Below are positions 5,079 through 54,201 of a stretch of 59,954 nucleotides of DNA, piece after piece. The stretch lies in NCBI GenBank assembly GCA_018716015.1, contig DVKM01000029.1:1-59954 (forward strand), written 5' to 3'. Below the pieces are notes generated by a model. It did no database searches and was not told the DNA's origin. It saw only the letters and a list, made by a program, of their open reading frames with translations. This DNA is from Candidatus Enterenecus stercoripullorum. Lineage in GTDB: Bacteria; Bacillota; Clostridia; Oscillospirales; Oscillospiraceae. Made by a program: the position numbers and the translations under genes. The stretch's first letter is position 1. Each line of letters starts with the position of its first letter.

Positions 5079-6170
5079 ATGTCCAGCCGGATTTTTCAGA
5101 GCATCGTTTTGCAAATGAAAGACTGTTCCGACAGGGCTGTGGGCGTCATTGACGAGCAGGGCACCGTGGTGGCCTGCAATGACCTGCCCTGTATCGGTGA
5201 GAAGTGGAGCAATGTGGCGGCGATGCTGGCCACGGAACAGGACGCCCTTGTGGTGAACAATGGCTATACCTTCAAGACGCTGCCGGGCTGGAACGGCCAG
5301 TTTGACTATGCCGCCTTTGCCAGGGGGGAGGACGAGCAGGCCGCGCTGATCTGTTCCATGGCAGTGATCGCCCTGAACGGGGCCAAGACCTACTATGAGG
5401 AGAAGCACGACGAGGCGACCTTTGTGAAGAATATCCTGTGTGACAACATTCTGCTGGGAGACATCTATGTCCGGGCCAAAGAGCTGCACTTTGTCTCCGA
5501 GGTGCCCCGGGCGGTGATCCTGGTGCGCCAGCTGGGCACCCCTGACGTGGCTGCCATTGACGTGATCTCCGGGCTGTTCCCGGACCGTCAGAACGACTAT
5601 GTGCTGTCCATCAGCGAGACGGATGTGGCGCTGGTCAAGCAGCTGGGGGAGAATGCCGACTCTCGGGAGGTGCAGAAGATCGCCCAGACCGTGCAGGAGG
5701 CCCTGACCCGGGAGCTGGGGATCAAGACCGTGGTGGGTGTGGGCACTATCGTCAACCATGTCCGGGATCTGGCCCGGGCCTATAAAGAGGCCCAGGTGGC
5801 TATCGACGTGGGTAAGGTGTTCGATACCGAGCGGTCTATCATCAACTATGAGAATCTGGGGATCGGCCGCCTGATCTATCAGCTGCCCACCACCCTGTGT
5901 GAGATGTTCCTCCAGGAGGTCTTTAAGAAGAACCCCATCGACGCGCTGGATCAGGAGACTCTGTTCACCATCAACAAGTTTTTTGAGAACAACCTGAACG
6001 TGTCCGAGACAGCCCGAAAGCTGTTCGTACATCGCAATACCTTGGTTTACCGGTTGGAGAAGATCAAGAAGCTCACCGGCCTGGACCTGCGGGAGTTTGA
6101 CGATGCCATCACCTTCAATGTGGCGCTGATGGTCAAAAAGTACCTGGTCTCCCGAGGAATCGACTCCTGA
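5079..6170 (+). CDS. CdaR/PucR-family transcriptional regulator
   Basis: Cytoplasmic DNA-binding regulator. The C-terminal 60 residues form the PucR-type helix-turn-helix (NVSETARKLFVHRNTLVYRL), followed by the usual LTGLDLREFDDAITF tail. The middle resembles the GGDEF-like domain of this family, and residues 1-120 look like a small sensor domain. The length of 363 aa is typical of the shorter CdaR-like regulators. No adjacent sugar-diacid or purine pathway gene identifies a ligand. It is monocistronic, between its own promoter and terminator. Confidence 0.85.
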   Translation: MSSRIFQSIVLQMKDCSDRAVGVIDEQGTVVACNDLPCIGEKWSNVAAMLATEQDALVVNNGYTFKTLPGWNGQFDYAAFARGEDEQAALICSMAVIALNGAKTYYEEKHDEATFVKNILCDNILLGDIYVRAKELHFVSEVPRAVILVRQLGTPDVAAIDVISGLFPDRQNDYVLSISETDVALVKQLGENADSREVQKIAQTVQEALTRELGIKTVVGVGTIVNHVRDLARAYKEAQVAIDVGKVFDTERSIINYENLGIGRLIYQLPTTLCEMFLQEVFKKNPIDALDQETLFTINKFFENNLNVSETARKLFVHRNTLVYRLEKIKKLTGLDLREFDDAITFNVALMVKKYLVSRGIDS

Positions 6171-6184
6171 GGTGGACTGCCCCA

Positions 6185-6219
6185 GCGCCGCCGCGTATTC
6201 AATGCGGCGGCGCCTTTTT
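6185..6219 (+). terminator. Intrinsic terminator after the CdaR/PucR-type gene
   Basis: A perfect 10-bp stem GCGCCGCCGC / GCGGCGGCGC with a 9-nt loop is followed by CTTTTTG. Confidence 0.92.
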
Positions 6220-6307
6220 GTAACCCTTTGTTTCTTTTGCGGCGGGTCCCCGGAGAAAAAGTTGACATAACAATATGGCGGATTTTGTGGATATCAGGGA
6301 TATTATG

Positions 6308-6336
6308 TTGACACCGCGGGAATTACCCTATATAAT
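6308..6336 (+). promoter_or_regulatory. Consensus sigma-A promoter of the ftsEX operon
   Basis: TTGACA, a 17-bp spacer and TATAAT both match consensus. The site lies about 55 bp before the ftsE start. A second TTGACA at 6262 has no good -10 partner. Confidence 0.9.
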
Positions 6337-6393
6337 GAGGAATAGTTACGCAGCATCCCATAAGTTACAAAGCGGTTACAGGGGGGCCCTTTT

Positions 6394-7086
6394 ATGATAC
6401 GGCTCATGGACGTATTCAAGGAATACGACAATGGAACCAAGGCGCTCAAGGGTATCAACCTGCGCATCGACGACGGAGAGTTCGTCTTTCTGGTGGGCCC
6501 TTCTGGTTCTGGAAAATCTACCATCATCAAGCTGCTCACGGCGGAGGTGTCCGCCACCCAAGGCCGGGTGATGGTCAATGGCTATAATCTGAACAACATC
6601 CGCCAGTGGCAGATCCCCCATATGCGCCGTACCCTTGGCGTCATTTTCCAGGACTTCCGGCTGATCGAGAAAAAGACGGTGCGCAGCAACCTGGAGTTCG
6701 TCATGCGGATCATTGGTGCCAGCCCCCGGGAGATGCGCCGGCGGATTCCCTATGTCCTGGATCTGGTGGGGCTGGGGGACAAGGCGGATGTGTATCCCAA
6801 TGAGATGAGCGGTGGTGAACAGCAGCGGGTGGCCATCGCCCGGGCGCTGATCAACAACCCCCAGATGATCATTGCCGACGAGCCCACGGGAAATCTGGAC
6901 CCCCAGCGCTCCCTGGAGATCATGACGCTGCTGGAGCGGATCAATTCCATGGGTACCACCATGCTGGTGGTCACCCATGAGAAGGAGTTGGTCAACCGTT
7001 TCTCCAAGCGGGTGGTGGCCATCCAAAACGGGGAGCTGGCCAGCGACGAGCGGGGGGGATATTATCAGTATGAAAAATCGGTTTAA
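6394..7086 (+). CDS. ftsE: Cell-division ATP-binding protein FtsE
   Basis: ATPase of the FtsEX complex, which uses ATP hydrolysis at the septum to activate a peptidoglycan hydrolase through FtsX. Visible motifs are Walker A GPSGSGKST (about residue 36), the signature MSGGEQQRVAIARAL, Walker B MIIADEPTGNLDP and the H-loop VVTHE. At 230 aa it is normal length. ftsX starts 17 bp before its stop, so the two are translationally coupled. The adjacent M23 hydrolase gene supports the division role. Confidence 0.97.
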   Translation: MIRLMDVFKEYDNGTKALKGINLRIDDGEFVFLVGPSGSGKSTIIKLLTAEVSATQGRVMVNGYNLNNIRQWQIPHMRRTLGVIFQDFRLIEKKTVRSNLEFVMRIIGASPREMRRRIPYVLDLVGLGDKADVYPNEMSGGEQQRVAIARALINNPQMIIADEPTGNLDPQRSLEIMTLLERINSMGTTMLVVTHEKELVNRFSKRVVAIQNGELASDERGGYYQYEKSV

Positions 7087-7973: not shown

Positions 7974-9203
7974 ATGAAGAAGAAAACACAGCGTATCATT
8001 GTGATCATCATGGCCCTGGCCCTGCTGGTTTCCGTTTTGGTGCCTGCCCTGGGCACGCTGGCGGCGGCGTCCATCACTCAGGGGGATATTGACGAGCTGG
8101 AAAACGAGCTCAGCGAGATCACTCAAGAGAAGGAAGAGGTACAGCAGGAACTGGACTCTATCCGGAATGACCTGGATCAGGCGGAGGAGCAGGTGAATCT
8201 GATCCAGAGCCATCTGCTCCTCACTGAGGAGCAGATCTCCGCCAGCCAACTGCTGCTGGACGAGTATGACGCCCAGATCGCTCAGAAGGAGAGTGAGATC
8301 GCCCAGCTGGAGGAGCAGGAGGCGGAGCAGTACGAGGAGTTCTACACCCAGGTACGCTGGCTGGAGGAGACGGGCCCTGTGTCCTATCTGGCGGTCTTCT
8401 TCCAGGCGTCCAGCTTCTCCGAGATGCTGGACTACGCCATGCTGATGCTGGATATTATGGATTACAGCGAGCGGATCATCACCCAGCTGGAGCAGACCCA
8501 GGCAGAGCTGGACGCGGCCCGGGGCGAGCTCCAGGACTCCCGGGACGCCCAGGCTCTGGTTCAGGCGGAGCTGGAAGCCCAGCAGGCGGAGCTTGCCGCC
8601 CGGCGGCAGGAGGCTCAGGCGCTATACGCCAGCATTGCCCAGACAGAGGCGGAGCTGGTGGCGAAGGAACAGCAGCTGGCGATAGACGAGGCGGAGATGG
8701 CCGATGCCCTGGAAGAGGCGGAGCGGAAGTACGCCGAGCAGATCGCCAACGCCAACGGGAATAACGACGGGGTGTACGCCTGGCCGCTGCCTGGCTACTA
8801 TAACATCTCTTCCCGCTTTGGCTACCGTATCCATCCCATCTATGGCACATCGGATAACCACCTGGGCAACGACGTGCCTGCCCCCGCCTGGACCCCCATC
8901 CTGGCGGCTCAGGACGGGGTGGTCACCTTGTCTCGGTATAACTCCTCCTATGGCAACTACTGCATCATCAACCACGGAGGGGGCTACTCCACCCTGTACG
9001 CCCACCAGATTACCTTGCCCCTCGTGTCCGAGGGGGACACGGTGACCAAGGGCCAGGTCATCGGCTACATCGGTACCTCCGGGGACTCCACCGGCTACCA
9101 CCTGCACTTTGAATTGCGCATCAACGGCACCCGGGGCGACTCCCTCATGTTGTACCCCGGCATGACTTTCTATTGGAAAGGAAGCCCGATTCAGGGCGGC
9201 TGA
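7974..9203 (+). CDS. EnvC/PcsB-like murein hydrolase with M23 (LytM) domain
   Basis: Secreted peptidoglycan hydrolase, probably activated by FtsEX. Start at 7974 after AAAGGAGG. Residues 1-30 are a signal peptide ending near TLAAAS. Residues 35-255 are a long Glu/Gln/Ala-rich coiled coil, as in EnvC, CwlO and PcsB. The C-terminal M23 domain (about 275-390) has the zinc ligands HLGND and HLHFE, so it looks catalytically intact, unlike the degenerate LytM regulators. It lies 13 bp after ftsX, in the classic ftsE-ftsX-hydrolase order. Confidence 0.93.
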   Translation: MKKKTQRIIVIIMALALLVSVLVPALGTLAAASITQGDIDELENELSEITQEKEEVQQELDSIRNDLDQAEEQVNLIQSHLLLTEEQISASQLLLDEYDAQIAQKESEIAQLEEQEAEQYEEFYTQVRWLEETGPVSYLAVFFQASSFSEMLDYAMLMLDIMDYSERIITQLEQTQAELDAARGELQDSRDAQALVQAELEAQQAELAARRQEAQALYASIAQTEAELVAKEQQLAIDEAEMADALEEAERKYAEQIANANGNNDGVYAWPLPGYYNISSRFGYRIHPIYGTSDNHLGNDVPAPAWTPILAAQDGVVTLSRYNSSYGNYCIINHGGGYSTLYAHQITLPLVSEGDTVTKGQVIGYIGTSGDSTGYHLHFELRINGTRGDSLMLYPGMTFYWKGSPIQGG

Positions 9204-9322: not shown

Positions 9323-10483
9323 ATGGAAGAACAACTGGTACAGAAAAGGGAGAAGCGCCGCGGCTGGCTGCCCGGCTGGGGGAAGATTTTGATTTCGGTA
9401 ATCCTGACCTTGGCTATCTCCACCGCCGGCTGGTGCCTGCTGCTGGGCCGGAGCGGCCTGGCGTTGATGGAGGGCTGGCTGCTGGCCCGGTTCGCCTTTG
9501 TGGACACCGGAGCGAATTTGGATGCCGCGGCGGACCAGGCCCTGAGTGGGCTGGTGTCCGGGCTGGGGGACCGCTGGTCCTACTATCTGGACGGGGAGAG
9601 CTACCAGCAGACCCGGCAGCGCCGGGCCAACAACTATGTAGGCATCGGCGTGACGGTAAACGCGGTGGACCGGGAAGAGGGCCTACTGGTACTCTCAGTC
9701 ACCCAGGGCGGCCCGGCGGAAGCGGCGGGCGTGGTGGCTGGAGACGTGATTACTGAAGTGGACGGGGTGCCCATCGCCGGAGACAACCGGTCAGAGGGTA
9801 CCAGCCTGGTCACCGGGGAGGAGGGAACTCAGGTAGAGCTCACTCTGCTGGGGGAGGATGGAACCACCCGCAGGGTGACCTGTACCCGGGCCACTTTGCG
9901 CAACCCCTCCGCGCTGGGACAGATGCTGGAGGATGACATTGGCTATGTCCAGCTGACCAACTTCTATTCCGGGGCTGCCGACAGTTTCCGGGAGGAGGTG
10001 GACGCCCTGGTGGAGCAGGGGGCCCGGGGCCTGATTATCGACGTGCGCAGCAACCCCGGCGGGTACATCTCCGAGCTGACGTCTATCCTGGACTACCTGT
10101 TGCCTGAGGGGCCGGTGTTCCAGCAGAATCCCCGCTGGGGAAGCCAAAGCGTGTATGTATCGGATGCCAGCTGCATTGACCTGCCCATGGTCACCCTGGT
10201 GAACGCCGACACCTATTCCGCGGCGGAGCTGCTGGCCGCAGAACTCAAGGAGTTCCAGGGCTCTCCGGTGGTGGGTACCGTCACCTCTGGCAAGGGCTAT
10301 TCCCAGATCACGTTCCCCCTGATCAACGGGGGTGGGCTGGGGTTGTCCACCGCCACTTACTGTACCGGAGAGGGCAACTCCCTGATTGGGGTGGGCATTA
10401 CCCCCGATGTGGAGCTGGAGCTGTCCGAAACGGAGGATAACCAGCTCCAGGCGGCCATAGAGCGGATATTGGAGCAGATGTAG
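9323..10483 (+). CDS. S41-family C-terminal processing protease (CtpA-like)
   Basis: Membrane-anchored serine protease facing the cell exterior. Start at 9323 after AAGGAGG. One TM anchor covers about residues 20-42. A PDZ domain follows (YVGIGVTVNAVD to GDVITEVDG), then the tail-protease domain. The catalytic Ser is in NADTYSAAELLA and the general-base Lys in VTSGKGYSQ. The length of 386 aa is typical. It follows the ftsEX-hydrolase block, as in many Firmicutes, and may process envelope proteins there; the substrate is unknown. Confidence 0.93.
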   Translation: MEEQLVQKREKRRGWLPGWGKILISVILTLAISTAGWCLLLGRSGLALMEGWLLARFAFVDTGANLDAAADQALSGLVSGLGDRWSYYLDGESYQQTRQRRANNYVGIGVTVNAVDREEGLLVLSVTQGGPAEAAGVVAGDVITEVDGVPIAGDNRSEGTSLVTGEEGTQVELTLLGEDGTTRRVTCTRATLRNPSALGQMLEDDIGYVQLTNFYSGAADSFREEVDALVEQGARGLIIDVRSNPGGYISELTSILDYLLPEGPVFQQNPRWGSQSVYVSDASCIDLPMVTLVNADTYSAAELLAAELKEFQGSPVVGTVTSGKGYSQITFPLINGGGLGLSTATYCTGEGNSLIGVGITPDVELELSETEDNQLQAAIERILEQM

Positions 10484-27674: not shown

Positions 27675-27876
27675 ACAATCCCGAAAGCGCAATCTCCGTC
27701 GGATCAACATTGTGGTCACAGCCCAGACGGTGGGCAGCCTGGCCTATCTGGCCAAGATGTGCAACTACCCTGAGATCGGCATGGCGGTGGACAAGCTGAC
27801 CCGGGAGAAGATGCTCAGTCTGCGGGCCTGGGGCTCCGGGAGTCGGCGGGCAAAGCGGGGTGATCACGATGGCTAA
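27667..27876 (+). CDS. Small basic protein, 69 aa
   Basis: Basic ends (KQSRKRNLRRIN and RRAKRGDH) flank a helix-rich core (VGSLAYLAKMCNYPEIGMAVDKLTREKM). The pattern suggests a small nucleic-acid-binding protein, possibly ribbon-helix-helix-like, but no family is recognised. It overlaps the HUH endonuclease start. Confidence 0.65.
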   Translation: MGKQSRKRNLRRINIVVTAQTVGSLAYLAKMCNYPEIGMAVDKLTREKMLSLRAWGSGSRRAKRGDHDG

Positions 27877-28675
27877 GGTCCTGCGCACAGTGGAGGCGGG
27901 TAGGCTGCGGTATGCGGTGCTCTACGACCGATACTCGCCGGCCGACCCGCCCCGGGCCCGGGCGGAGAAGCAGCGGGCCAGCTCAGCAGCCCGGCAGGCG
28001 CTCAACATGAGGACCAGCTGTCAGCGGTTGGAGTGCCTGCTGTTTTCCAACTTCGGCCGGGACGATTGGCTGGTGACTCTTACATATGATGACGCGCACC
28101 TGCCAGCAAACTGGGAAGCGGCCATCAAGCAGGCCAAAAAGTTTATCCGCACTCTGCGAGAGCACCGGCGGCCGCGAGACCAGCCTCTACGCTATGTCTA
28201 TGTGACAGAGGACAAGCACGGCGATGGGCGCGTCCACCACCACATGGTGGTCAACGGCACCGGCGAAGATATGGAGACCTTCCGCTCATTATGGACCAAT
28301 GGGATCGTTCTGATGCAAAACCTCAGGCCCAGAGAGTTCCCGGCCTTGGCCCGATATCTCACTAAGGAGCCGCGGGAGTACGGCCGGGTGGATGTGGGCG
28401 CCCGGAATTGGTCCGCATCCAGAGGTCTGGCCAAGGCGGTGGCGCCGCCGGCGGAGATCGTGCCAGACATCTTGACCCTCCAAGCTCCTCCTGGAGCATA
28501 TATATTAGAAAACGAGGGGACGATGGTCAATGAGTTCGGCAACTACCAATTCATCAAATACCTTATGCCGGACCAGGAGGACTACCGGGTGCCTCTGGAG
28601 GTATCCACCGACCCGGAGCTGGACCTGACGCCCTGGCGGTACGCGCCGGAGCGGCGGAAGAGGAAAACTGCATAG
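27869..28675 (+). CDS. HUH Rep-like endonuclease (REP_ORF2-G2P type)
   Basis: Resembles replication initiators of rolling-circle ssDNA phages, which nick DNA through a Tyr. Motif 1 WLVTLTYDDAHLP (about residue 67). Motif 2 GRVHHHMVV, the His-bulky-His metal site (about 118). Candidate motif 3 LARYLTKE (about 160), with Tyr followed by Lys. A second Tyr/Lys segment (NYQFIKYLMP) lies later. The ATG at 27869 is preferred over GTG 27860 because GGGGTGAT precedes it. The protein is 268 aa. Whether it replicates the phage, acts in packaging, or is cargo is unknown. Confidence 0.82.
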   Translation: MAKVLRTVEAGRLRYAVLYDRYSPADPPRARAEKQRASSAARQALNMRTSCQRLECLLFSNFGRDDWLVTLTYDDAHLPANWEAAIKQAKKFIRTLREHRRPRDQPLRYVYVTEDKHGDGRVHHHMVVNGTGEDMETFRSLWTNGIVLMQNLRPREFPALARYLTKEPREYGRVDVGARNWSASRGLAKAVAPPAEIVPDILTLQAPPGAYILENEGTMVNEFGNYQFIKYLMPDQEDYRVPLEVSTDPELDLTPWRYAPERRKRKTA

Positions 28676-28746: not shown

Positions 28747-28950
28747 TTGCAAACCAAAGAAAAGTGTGGTAAACTAACGGTGAAAGATGGATGGCTGATG
28801 TGTCCGGCCTGCGGAAGGCAGAAGGTCCTCCGGCTGAGACCAGGGACACAAGCCAAAGACCTGCCGGTATACTGCAAGCGATGTGGGCAGGAGTCCATCG
28901 TAAATATCGACCAGAGCCTGAGCCAACGTCGAGACCCGACAAGCGCCTGA
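28747..28950 (+). CDS. Cysteine-rich KTR-type protein (Com-like)
   Basis: 67 aa with two CxxC knuckles (CPAC, CKRC), matching the Cys_rich_KTR family pattern C-P-x-C-G ... L-P-x-Y-C-x-x-C. It starts at TTG 28747 behind AAAAAAGGGGG. The last dozen codons overlap the RNA/terminator element at 28914. It sits at the early/late junction, consistent with a regulatory role like Com-type proteins, though this is inference. Confidence 0.78.
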   Translation: MQTKEKCGKLTVKDGWLMCPACGRQKVLRLRPGTQAKDLPVYCKRCGQESIVNIDQSLSQRRDPTSA

Positions 28951-28994
28951 GCCTATGACCACCCGATTGGGAGTCGTGGCTTGGGCGCTTTTTT
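28914..28994 (+). ncRNA. Structured terminator-like RNA element, copy A
   Basis: Layout: GAGCCTGAGCCA, small hairpin (GTCG-AGACC-CGAC), AAGCGCCTGAGCC, inner hairpin (ATGAC..CCC-GATT-GGG..GTCGT), GGCTTGGGCGCTT, then TTTT. The strands AAGCGCCTGAGCC and GGCTTGGGCGCTT pair over 13 bp, with two G-U pairs. The first GCCTGAGCC can compete for the same 3' strand. The architecture matches copy B at 34031, though both hairpin sequences differ. Confidence 0.75.
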
Positions 28995-29016
28995 GTTTGC
29001 CCGGAGGTGATAGCCC

Positions 29017-29397
29017 GTGGCCCTAAAACCGCCCAGGCCTTGCCGACATCCTGGCTGCGGTGTGCTGACCAGGGATGGATACTGTGCCCAGCACAAGCCC
29101 AAACAGGCCGGCCGCCGCCAGTCCGCCCAGTGGCACAGCTGGTACTCGCTGCCCATCTGGACGGAGGACCTGCGGCCGGGGCAGCTGCTCCGGGAGCCTT
29201 TCTGCCGTGAGTGCGCCTGCCATGGCATACGGACGCCGGCCACCGACGTGGACCACATCCGGGAGCACCGAGGCGACTGGGCGCTGTTCACCGCCCGGGA
29301 CAATCTCCAGAGTCTGTGCCACTCCTGCCACAGCCGCAAGACCATGCGGGAGCTATGGCAAAATCGGCGGGAAAATTCCGGCGGAAGCAGGCGATAA
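29017..29397 (+). CDS. HNH endonuclease
   Basis: 126 aa. Zinc-binding Cys residues (CRHPGCG, CAQH, FCREC, CHSCH) surround the HNH core: DVDHI, then DNLQSLCHSCHSRKT. In HK97-like phages an HNH nuclease next to the terminase assists cleavage at cos during packaging. Start GTG 29017 after GGAGGTGAT. It is the first gene of the late packaging/head module and follows the terminator-like element A. Confidence 0.93.
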   Translation: MALKPPRPCRHPGCGVLTRDGYCAQHKPKQAGRRQSAQWHSWYSLPIWTEDLRPGQLLREPFCRECACHGIRTPATDVDHIREHRGDWALFTARDNLQSLCHSCHSRKTMRELWQNRRENSGGSRR

Positions 29398-34030: not shown

Positions 34031-34113
34031 GAGCCTGAGCCAGAGCCCGCAAGGGCCAGCGCCTGAGCCGGGGCGGGGAGACCCGCCCTTGACTCAGGCG
34101 CTTTTTATTTTTT
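34031..34113 (+). ncRNA. Structured terminator-like RNA element, copy B
   Basis: Layout: GAGCCTGAGCCA, hairpin GCCC-GCAA-GGGC, CAGCGCCTGAGCC, inner hairpin GGGCGGG-GAGA-CCCGCCC, then CTCAGGCGCT, then TTTTTATTTTTT. The long stem AGCGCCTGAG / CTCAGGCGCT is 10 bp. GCCTGAG of the first block can pair with the same CTCAGGC. The element lies between portal and protease in the middle of the head operon. Confidence 0.75.
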
Positions 34114-53601: not shown

Positions 53602-53663
53602 TGGCGCGGAAGGAGGGATTTGAACCCTCGCGCGGCTTTCACCGCCTACTCCCTTAGCAGGGG
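53602..53663 (-). repeat. attR: direct repeat with attL
   Basis: 62 bp identical to 14761-14822, spanning the 3' part of the tRNA from the anticodon loop to CCA. Confidence 0.95.
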
Positions 53664-53692
53664 AGCCCCTTCGGCCTCTTGGGTACTTCCGC
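53602..53692 (-). tRNA. tRNA-Ser(GCT), intact, hybrid of host 5' and phage 3' halves
   Basis: 91 nt including encoded CCA. Acceptor GCGGAAG/CTTCCGC, anticodon stem CTCCC/GGGAG with loop CTGCTAA (anticodon GCT), a long variable arm typical of class II tRNAs, and TTCAAAT T loop. The 3' 62 nt come from the phage att core, so integration regenerates a complete gene. Confidence 0.96.
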
Positions 53693-53730: not shown

Positions 53731-53817
53731 TGGCGGAGAGAGTGGGATTCGAACCCACGGCCCTTGCGGGTCACCGGTTTTCAAGACCGGCTCCTTAAAC
53801 CACTCGGACATCTCTCC
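53731..53817 (-). tRNA. tRNA-Ser(TGA)
   Basis: 87 nt including CCA. Acceptor GGAGAGA/TCTCTCC, anticodon loop CTTGAAA (anticodon TGA), long variable arm and GTTCGAATC T loop. It lies 38 bp upstream (in transcription) of tRNA-Ser(GCT) and was probably co-transcribed with it. Confidence 0.97.
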
Positions 53818-53935: not shown

Positions 53936-54201
53936 AACAAAAGGCGCAGATGGGAAGAAGGCATGGATGACCCCGCTTCAGAGAACCGGTGGCAGGTGGA
54001 AACCGGTGCGGAGGGCCGTGCGAATACTGGCCCCGGAGCCGCCGCCCCGAACCGTAGATGCAGTAGGGACGGACGGGCGATCCCGTTACAGGTCAAGGCC
54101 TTGCTGGAGGCCGGTGAGCGCCCCTGGGTAACCCGGGGCGGAATTAGGGTGGTACCGCGTAAGTTTACGCCCCTGACGATTTACAGTCGGGGGCGTTTTT
54201 T
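53936..54201 (+). promoter_or_regulatory. T-box riboswitch leader of leuA
   Basis: The hallmark AGGGTGGTACCGCG at about 54146 pairs with an uncharged tRNA acceptor. It is followed by a terminator (CGCCCCTGAC / GTCGGGGGCG plus TTTTTT, 54169-54201). Stem I lies upstream, with the AG-bulge/loop region near CAGAGAACCGG. After GAATA in the specifier region comes CTG, a Leu codon, which fits regulation of leuA by uncharged tRNA-Leu. The specifier assignment is inference; the T-box itself is clear. Confidence 0.93.

Follow-up and report, generated by a model that had tools for sequence, protein, structure and literature searches.

A terminator-like RNA element recurring at KTR gene ends, perhaps a conditional terminator of mobile elements

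What is the terminator-like structure that lies over the end of a small prophage gene and stops just short of the ribosome-binding site (RBS) of the following one, and why does it occur twice in the same prophage? The window, that is, the whole stretch of 59,954 nucleotides that we analyzed, is one whole contig of a 1.83-Mb, 114-contig assembly of Candidatus Enterenecus stercoripullorum. It carries a prophage with the gene order Rep, KTR, HNH, methylase, TerS, TerL, portal, protease and capsid, the last two presumed from their position. The close relatives of its KTR gene in named genomes come mostly from Oscillospiraceae MAGs and a Flavonifractor. Elsewhere in the window, a T-box leader (53938-54177, + strand) lies near two tRNA-Ser genes (gct and tga; 53602-53692 and 53731-53817, − strand).

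Two copies of the element in one prophage

Both copies of the element, A and B (Table 1), contain what is expected of an intrinsic terminator, namely a stable G+C-rich hairpin with a T-run directly 3′ of it, and in both a direct repeat of the terminator 5′ arm, block 1, lies ahead of that arm. Copy A covers the last codons of KTR, whose TGA stop falls within block 2, and precedes HNH, which places it at the early/late junction as the initial annotation had it. That annotation also described two GCCTGAGCC blocks common to A and B, with hairpins between and after them that differ in sequence and yet stay paired. The sequence and our folding agree with this description, except that the two blocks are not identical to each other: block 1 begins with GAGCC and block 2 with GCGCC, and in A and B they agree at 10 of 11 positions.

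Table 1. Genes and element parts around copies A and B (positions in the window; z against dinucleotide shuffles)
Feature	Position	Strand	Support or remark
Rep (replication initiation protein), upstream of KTR	27860..28675	+	synteny Rep-KTR-element-HNH
KTR gene (Cys-rich zinc ribbon, 67 aa, TTG start)	28747..28950	+	Pfam PF14205, E 4.4e-12
Copy A, whole element (block 1, P1, block 2, apical hairpin, block 3, T-run)	28914..28994	+	
Copy A block 1, GAGCCTGAGCC	28914..28924	+	direct repeat of terminator 5′ arm
Copy A P1, small hairpin GTCG/CGAC	28928..28940	+	covariation
Copy A terminator hairpin (block 2 as 5′ arm, variable apical stem, block 3 as 3′ arm)	28942..28989	+	z −5.5; −33.4 kcal/mol
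Copy A block 2	28942..28953	+	
Copy A block 3	28978..28989	+	
Copy A T-run	to 28994	+	
Shine-Dalgarno-like GGAGGTGA of the HNH gene	29003..29010	+	begins 9 nt past the copy A T-run
HNH endonuclease gene, downstream of copy A	29017..29397	+	Pfam PF01844, E 2.1e-7; PHROG 144
Copy B, whole element, between portal and protease genes	34031..34106	+	noncoding; starts 3 nt past the portal stop codon
Copy B block 1	34031..34041	+	
Copy B P1, GCCC-GCAA-GGGC	34045..34056	+	folding, covariation
Copy B terminator hairpin	34058..34102	+	z −6.9; −39.8 kcal/mol
Copy B block 2	34058..34069	+	
Copy B block 3	34091..34102	+	
Copy B T-run	from 34102	+	

The two-block pattern was found only at A and B in the 1.83-Mb assembly and the reversed control gave 0 matches, so it stands above chance. 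Between 17.2 and 51.6 kb the + strand likewise has no other strong terminator-like structure; a single further match, inside a gene, is weak. When block 1, P1 and block 2 were folded alone their stability was not unusual (z −0.45 for A and +1.00 for B), and the case for P1 therefore rests on the comparison of relatives.

Relatives, covariation and linkage to KTR genes

An exact-pattern scan of viral contigs returned 113 stretches, from which a filter on fold and T-run kept 24 relatives with 17 distinct sequences. The remaining stretches were mostly Pro/Ala/Glu-repeat coding DNA rather than relatives, and one that passed the filter (L019) was dropped as DNA of the same kind. The alignment of the 17 distinct relatives with A and B (A2, 19 rows) outlined the consensus GCGCCTGAGCC - P1 - AGCGCCTGAGCC - variable apical hairpin - GGCTYRGGCGCT - T-run. 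In about half of the stems in A2 a tandem U-G/G-U wobble replaces Watson-Crick pairs; these wobbles, together with a T-run that lies 3′ along the direction of transcription, point to the RNA level, so that of the two forms first proposed, RNA or cruciform DNA, we favor the former over the latter.

P1 was evaluated in an alignment of 23 elements (A5). All 4 of its pairs show double changes, 88% of the cells are paired, and the covariation score was 0.491 as compared with 0.130 for shuffled alignments and a maximum of 0.191 for slid controls; none of 500 shuffles was as high on three measures. Among the elements examined, P1 is absent from L119, from copy A of L321 and from class 2. At phage-type KTR loci blocks 1 to 3 change jointly in further classes, GCCTGTGCC (L116 and L216), GCCAGTGCC (L121) and GCCAGAGCC (L167), and a second large class has block 2/block 3 resembling GCCGGTGCC/GGCACCGGC, with block 1 still GCCAGTGC.

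A related element, GCCAGACGC-N3-GACGCAGAGCC followed by a terminator, stands at canonical KTR ends, including those of KTR genes downstream of tet(M) or tet(O); in KTR genes of the EPDAKTQSR type it reads GAGCCAGACGC-N3-GACGCAGAGCC, followed by a hairpin GATAAC...GTTATCGGCTC and a T-run. The canonical stem covaries as well, with double changes in 6 of 11 pairs. The proposal of a selected structure with compensatory changes, first made from A and B alone, is thus sustained by both stems, and the search for further homologs that it called for produced relatives with compensatory changes in P1. In L150 the KTR ORF stops upstream of the element and the element is kept, and in L132, L140, L141, L144, L145, L148, L151 and L152 the ORF ends after EPDA or its equivalent and the later bases still match. 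Since, moreover, class 1 reads block 1 and block 2 in differing frames and the element of genome G049 sits on a KTR remnant, what is conserved is the nucleotide sequence and not the peptide.

The shared architecture consists of a tandem GCCnGnGCC motif, a covarying small hairpin between its copies (in class 1) and a terminator 5′ arm that holds the second copy. Elements with this architecture belong to an RNA family that is apparently undescribed and located mostly at KTR ends, in phages, mobile elements and tetracycline-resistance plasmids. No Rfam family scored above its gathering score, and the matches by E-value were at chance level. An uptake sequence or genome-wide repeat was rejected given the 0 to 4 copies per genome, as was an integron attC site, whose GTTRRRY-type ends are missing. 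In a related prophage (L188), a DUF3800-VIII RNA of Rfam (8036-8099) lies ~2 kb upstream of the KTR element.

KTR (PF14205) is present in 81 of 300 genomes of the host family. For the linkage counts we left out two of 32 R1 rows, both antisense re-hits of a hairpin already counted, and one short fragment among the KTR rows, which gave 30 R1 rows and 125 KTR rows; R2 rows entered at E ≤ 1e-6 (55 rows). Matches of the R1 model lie at KTR 3′ ends in 19 of 30 cases, and a further 5 share the strand of a KTR gene at most 10 kb away; for the R2 model the numbers are 43 of 55 and a further 3. A 37-base probe matched 439 of 72,556 plasmid records, mostly from Campylobacter (160) and Escherichia (135); among 45 plasmid rows taken across the ranking most have an annotated KTR, one a conjugal transfer protein, and the rest are unannotated there. 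The canonical element follows tet(O) and KTR in pTet and, in pMD5057, lies at the end of a KTR gene located 3′ of tet(M); judging from its position, the KTR gene after tet(M) is presumably orf6 of Tn916. The KTR loci and plasmid copies bear out the link to other KTR gene ends that the initial annotation had mentioned.

We also compared HNH loci, 4 of 80 being dropped for having too little upstream sequence. Of 45 loci with KTR, 40 have the tandem motif ahead of HNH, against 0 of 31 loci without KTR (five composition-matched control motifs gave 0); part of this co-occurrence follows automatically from the overlap of the element with the KTR gene end. A terminator precedes HNH in 44 of the 45 and 11 of the 31, the KTR-less loci belonging to more distant phages. 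Taken together, the genomic comparison shows a strong linkage between KTR and the element, in part through the gene overlap.

Some phages carry a KTR gene without a 3′ element: in L197, L202 and L213 the element lies upstream of Rep and in L203 farther upstream, while none was seen just upstream of Rep in L194. The upstream-of-Rep elements of L203 (8430-8550; G145:C142), L202 and L213, phages whose KTR gene has no 3′ element, have a much longer P1, of 6-7 bp, and a shifted terminator arm, GAGCCAGAGC. In L216 the element is placed just 5′ of a KTR gene. Part of the apparent exceptions to the linkage can be accounted for: G049 has its KTR remnant, the G273 site is itself a remnant (below), in G145:C110 KTR was detected by tblastn and was not listed by the Pfam search, and contig G271:C22 ends ~200 bases past Rep. 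Genuine sites at other genes include an RlmN/Cfr-like gene (G253, G210 and G182) and a TetR-type regulator (G185), among others, and no KTR was found in the genomes of G253, G210 and G185, whose elements stand at the ends of these other genes. In three genomes (L279 172-965; L278 ~5560-6620, − strand; L275) a gene runs directly into a canonical element; it encodes a radical-SAM rRNA methyltransferase that by similarity falls between RlmN and Cfr, below both cut-offs.

A second element at the portal-protease junction, as in copy B, was rejected as a general feature: among the junctions read it occurs only in the window, in G247 (L181) and in G273 (L167), and in broken form in L321. The G273 site is a prophage remnant with a truncated portal gene and no Rep, KTR, HNH or TerL found nearby. 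When R1 was searched against 50 viral records, 43 matched, nearly all with one full-length sense match, so the two-copy condition stressed in the initial annotation is not typical. Copy B is an additional, lineage-specific copy of an element that is widespread and usually present once, and a KTR regulon is not a general feature, given that most phage records are single-copy.

Read-through and competing explanations

Of the 50 elements at the A position, 42 have an RBS-like site at most 40 nt past the stem. At A and B, as expected of attenuators, there is no space for a promoter between the terminator with its T-run and the RBS, so the downstream genes need either read-through or an internal promoter, which could lie inside the downstream gene; a scan for sigma-70-type sites only gave no + strand promoter candidate between 27.1 and 41.1 kb. 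At the typical phage position, where the element overlaps the KTR stop and precedes the HNH RBS, read-through is probably needed.

The element is best read as a conditional terminator of mobile elements, perhaps under KTR control. In the specific form that we tentatively favor, with confidence not quite reaching the even mark, it would be a structured intrinsic terminator built onto KTR 3′ ends that acts as an attenuator on mobile elements and is opened by KTR. The HNH-packaging genes, and the protease and capsid genes after copy B, would depend on read-through, as no promoter fits, and termination at the element would have to be partial or regulated. KTR might bind the nascent RNA at the tandem motif, which would prevent the second copy of the motif from forming the terminator, and a build-up of KTR would then open the passage from early to late genes. 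The attenuator reading is supported by the covariation of P1 and of the canonical stem, the conservation of nucleotides, the position of the RBS, the KTR linkage and the persistence of the element near KTR. The lack of P1 in L119, copy A of L321 and class 2 counts against it.

Control by KTR itself is one of two attractive possibilities, the other being a masking of block 2 by the ribosome (below). KTR has a CxxC...CxxC pattern and weakly matches PHROG 6417, a 'translational regulator' (E 5.5e-6 over 44 residues), its NCBIfam matches are all below cut-off, and its predicted fold (mean pLDDT 75) had no significant PDB match (0 of 147 with E ≤ 0.001). This weak PHROG match, the lack of a significant structural match and the elements at non-KTR genes count against KTR control. 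It is doubtful that KTR proteins constitute a new class of RNA-binding attenuation regulators controlling the terminators at their own gene ends; such regulators would recognize tandem GCCnGnGCC or GCC-AGA-CGC / CGC-AGA-GCC sites.

An ordinary strong intrinsic terminator, inherited with KTR and conserved through descent, transfer and the coding of the KTR C-terminus, would account for most copies being at one gene end and for the usual one copy per phage; gene-end terminators are common and even 11 of the 31 KTR-less loci have one before HNH. We nevertheless consider it unlikely. A bare terminator needs no conserved upstream sequence, while the tandem motif persists in noncoding copies and is kept across divergent KTR proteins (~25-63% identical to that of the window), P1 covaries, and an unconditional stop before the RBS of an operon gene would be costly.

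The pairing of block 1 raises other alternatives. With block 2 held open, block 1 pairs with block 3 at −27.1 (A) and −38.1 kcal/mol (B). The initial annotation saw here a possible antiterminator/terminator choice: block 1 can indeed pair with block 3, but we found no fold freeing block 3 as a mutually exclusive antiterminator would, and the pairing leaves block 3 paired by the T-run, which would make it a second terminator. As the block 1-block 3 hairpin also abuts the T-run, a simple antiterminator is unlikely; moreover, in the GCCRGTGCC phage class this pairing often covers only 7 of 9 positions (e.g., L217, L222 and L120), which also goes against the proposed choice. Over 59 elements, block 1 forms on average 8.12 of 9 pairs with its own block 3, compared with 7.44 after swapping (sd 0.11, maximum 7.81, 1000 swaps), relatedness being uncorrected, and with 6.67 of 9 when the upstream sequence was shuffled. 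In this test L187, L194, L202, L203 and L213 were without a terminator at the KTR end, and the upstream site stood in for L216 and L197. When 491 terminators were screened for repeated 5′ arms, 28 reached at least 9 of 11 identities, compared with 11 once the upstream sequence was shuffled; of the 28, about a dozen belong to the KTR element family, and the others are mostly simple repeats and chance matches.

These pairings would suit a ribosome-coupled or fail-safe terminator, in which a ribosome ending KTR translation masks block 2 and block 1 serves as an alternative 5′ arm, the direct repeat making termination dependent on, or proof against, the position of the ribosome. Among 33 KTR-end elements, 11 have the KTR stop codon within the 9-nt arm and 18 have it 9-20 nt past the first base of the arm, so that in 29 of 33 it falls in the arm or at most 20 nt past that base; block 1-block 3 is stable with block 2 open, an element's own block 3 is paired better than a swapped one, and in L196 a second 3′ strand, with a T-run of its own, lies opposite block 1. 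Copy B, L167, L175 and L182, however, are not at such a stop codon, class 2 reaches only 7 of 9 block 1-block 3 pairs, and the swap statistics carry no correction for relatedness. We judge this explanation rather improbable. In L196 (~10110-10210) and L179 there are two T-runs; block 2 pairs with the first 3′ strand and block 1 matches the second, GGCCTGGCTC, before the second T-run, possibly a nested pair of terminators.

A DNA-level site, be it iterons or a hairpin for the adjacent rolling-circle Rep or a recombination or packaging site, is very improbable even though Rep adjoins KTR in the phages, direct and inverted repeats resemble origins and some cargo genes end at the element, since the T-run lies 3′ along transcription after a co-directional gene, the stem contains G-U wobbles, and the two plasmid copies inspected follow tet genes with no adjacent rolling-circle Rep gene.

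Known systems and tetracycline-resistance elements

With intrinsic terminators used as attenuators the KTR element shares a G+C-rich hairpin and T-run directly before the downstream RBS; it differs from them in its conserved tandem motif, covarying P1 and repeated 5′ arm, and in overlapping a gene end instead of lying in a leader. The antiterminator proteins LicT and SacY bind RAT sites in the region of the terminator 5′ arm. The likeness is restricted to the proposed logic, a protein on nascent RNA that would prevent the terminator, as KTR is a zinc ribbon and no homology was seen. Com of phage Mu, which acts on the translation of mom, is also a small CxxC...CxxC protein whose gene lies immediately upstream of the one it regulates; the sequence likeness of KTR to PHROG 6417 is limited (E 5.5e-6 over 44 residues) and the candidate RNA site of KTR is a terminator. 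HK022 put works as RNA without a protein. Both put and the AlpA system resemble the KTR element as control by mobile elements of read-through at intrinsic terminators, although AlpA binds promoter DNA (PMC7969949).

The tet(M)-orf6 region of Tn916 is alike in having a KTR gene with a canonical element directly downstream of tet(M). In the parts consulted of two Tn916 papers, putative terminators are drawn on the maps, the attenuation described is that of the orf12 leader, and the KTR element is not described (PMC7288454, PMC9154091). The element is likewise undescribed in the parts consulted of the literature on KTR/PF14205, Cormatin, Tn916 orf6, prophage terminators, terminator overlap, Com and antitermination, a coverage outside which most subscription journals fall. 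Phage Cormatin of Flavonifractor plautii is tabulated as an induced prophage (PMC10197239).

KTR genes are found alongside tet(M) and tet(O) on both plasmids and conjugative elements. A conserved RNA at the 3′ ends of KTR genes provides a concrete, testable hypothesis for the role of KTR. If the proposed gate is real, it would add a layer of control to Tn916-type elements and to the early-late switch in a large group of gut phages. If KTR is in addition the regulator, it would gate the switch of gut phages from replication to packaging genes and, in Tn916-like elements, transcription from tet(M) past orf6 to the regulatory and transfer genes.

Finally, two further observations concern other loci. 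In L274 (5947-13289; G074:C7) three canonical elements lie on one strand within 7.4 kb, surrounding a row of BlaI-like, BlaR1-like and KTR genes and an ATPase gene resembling an ABC transporter. In L418, a match to Rfam sRNA_0030 (Enterococcus sRNA 30) at positions 564-728 lies upstream of tet(M) and covers the tet leader peptide.
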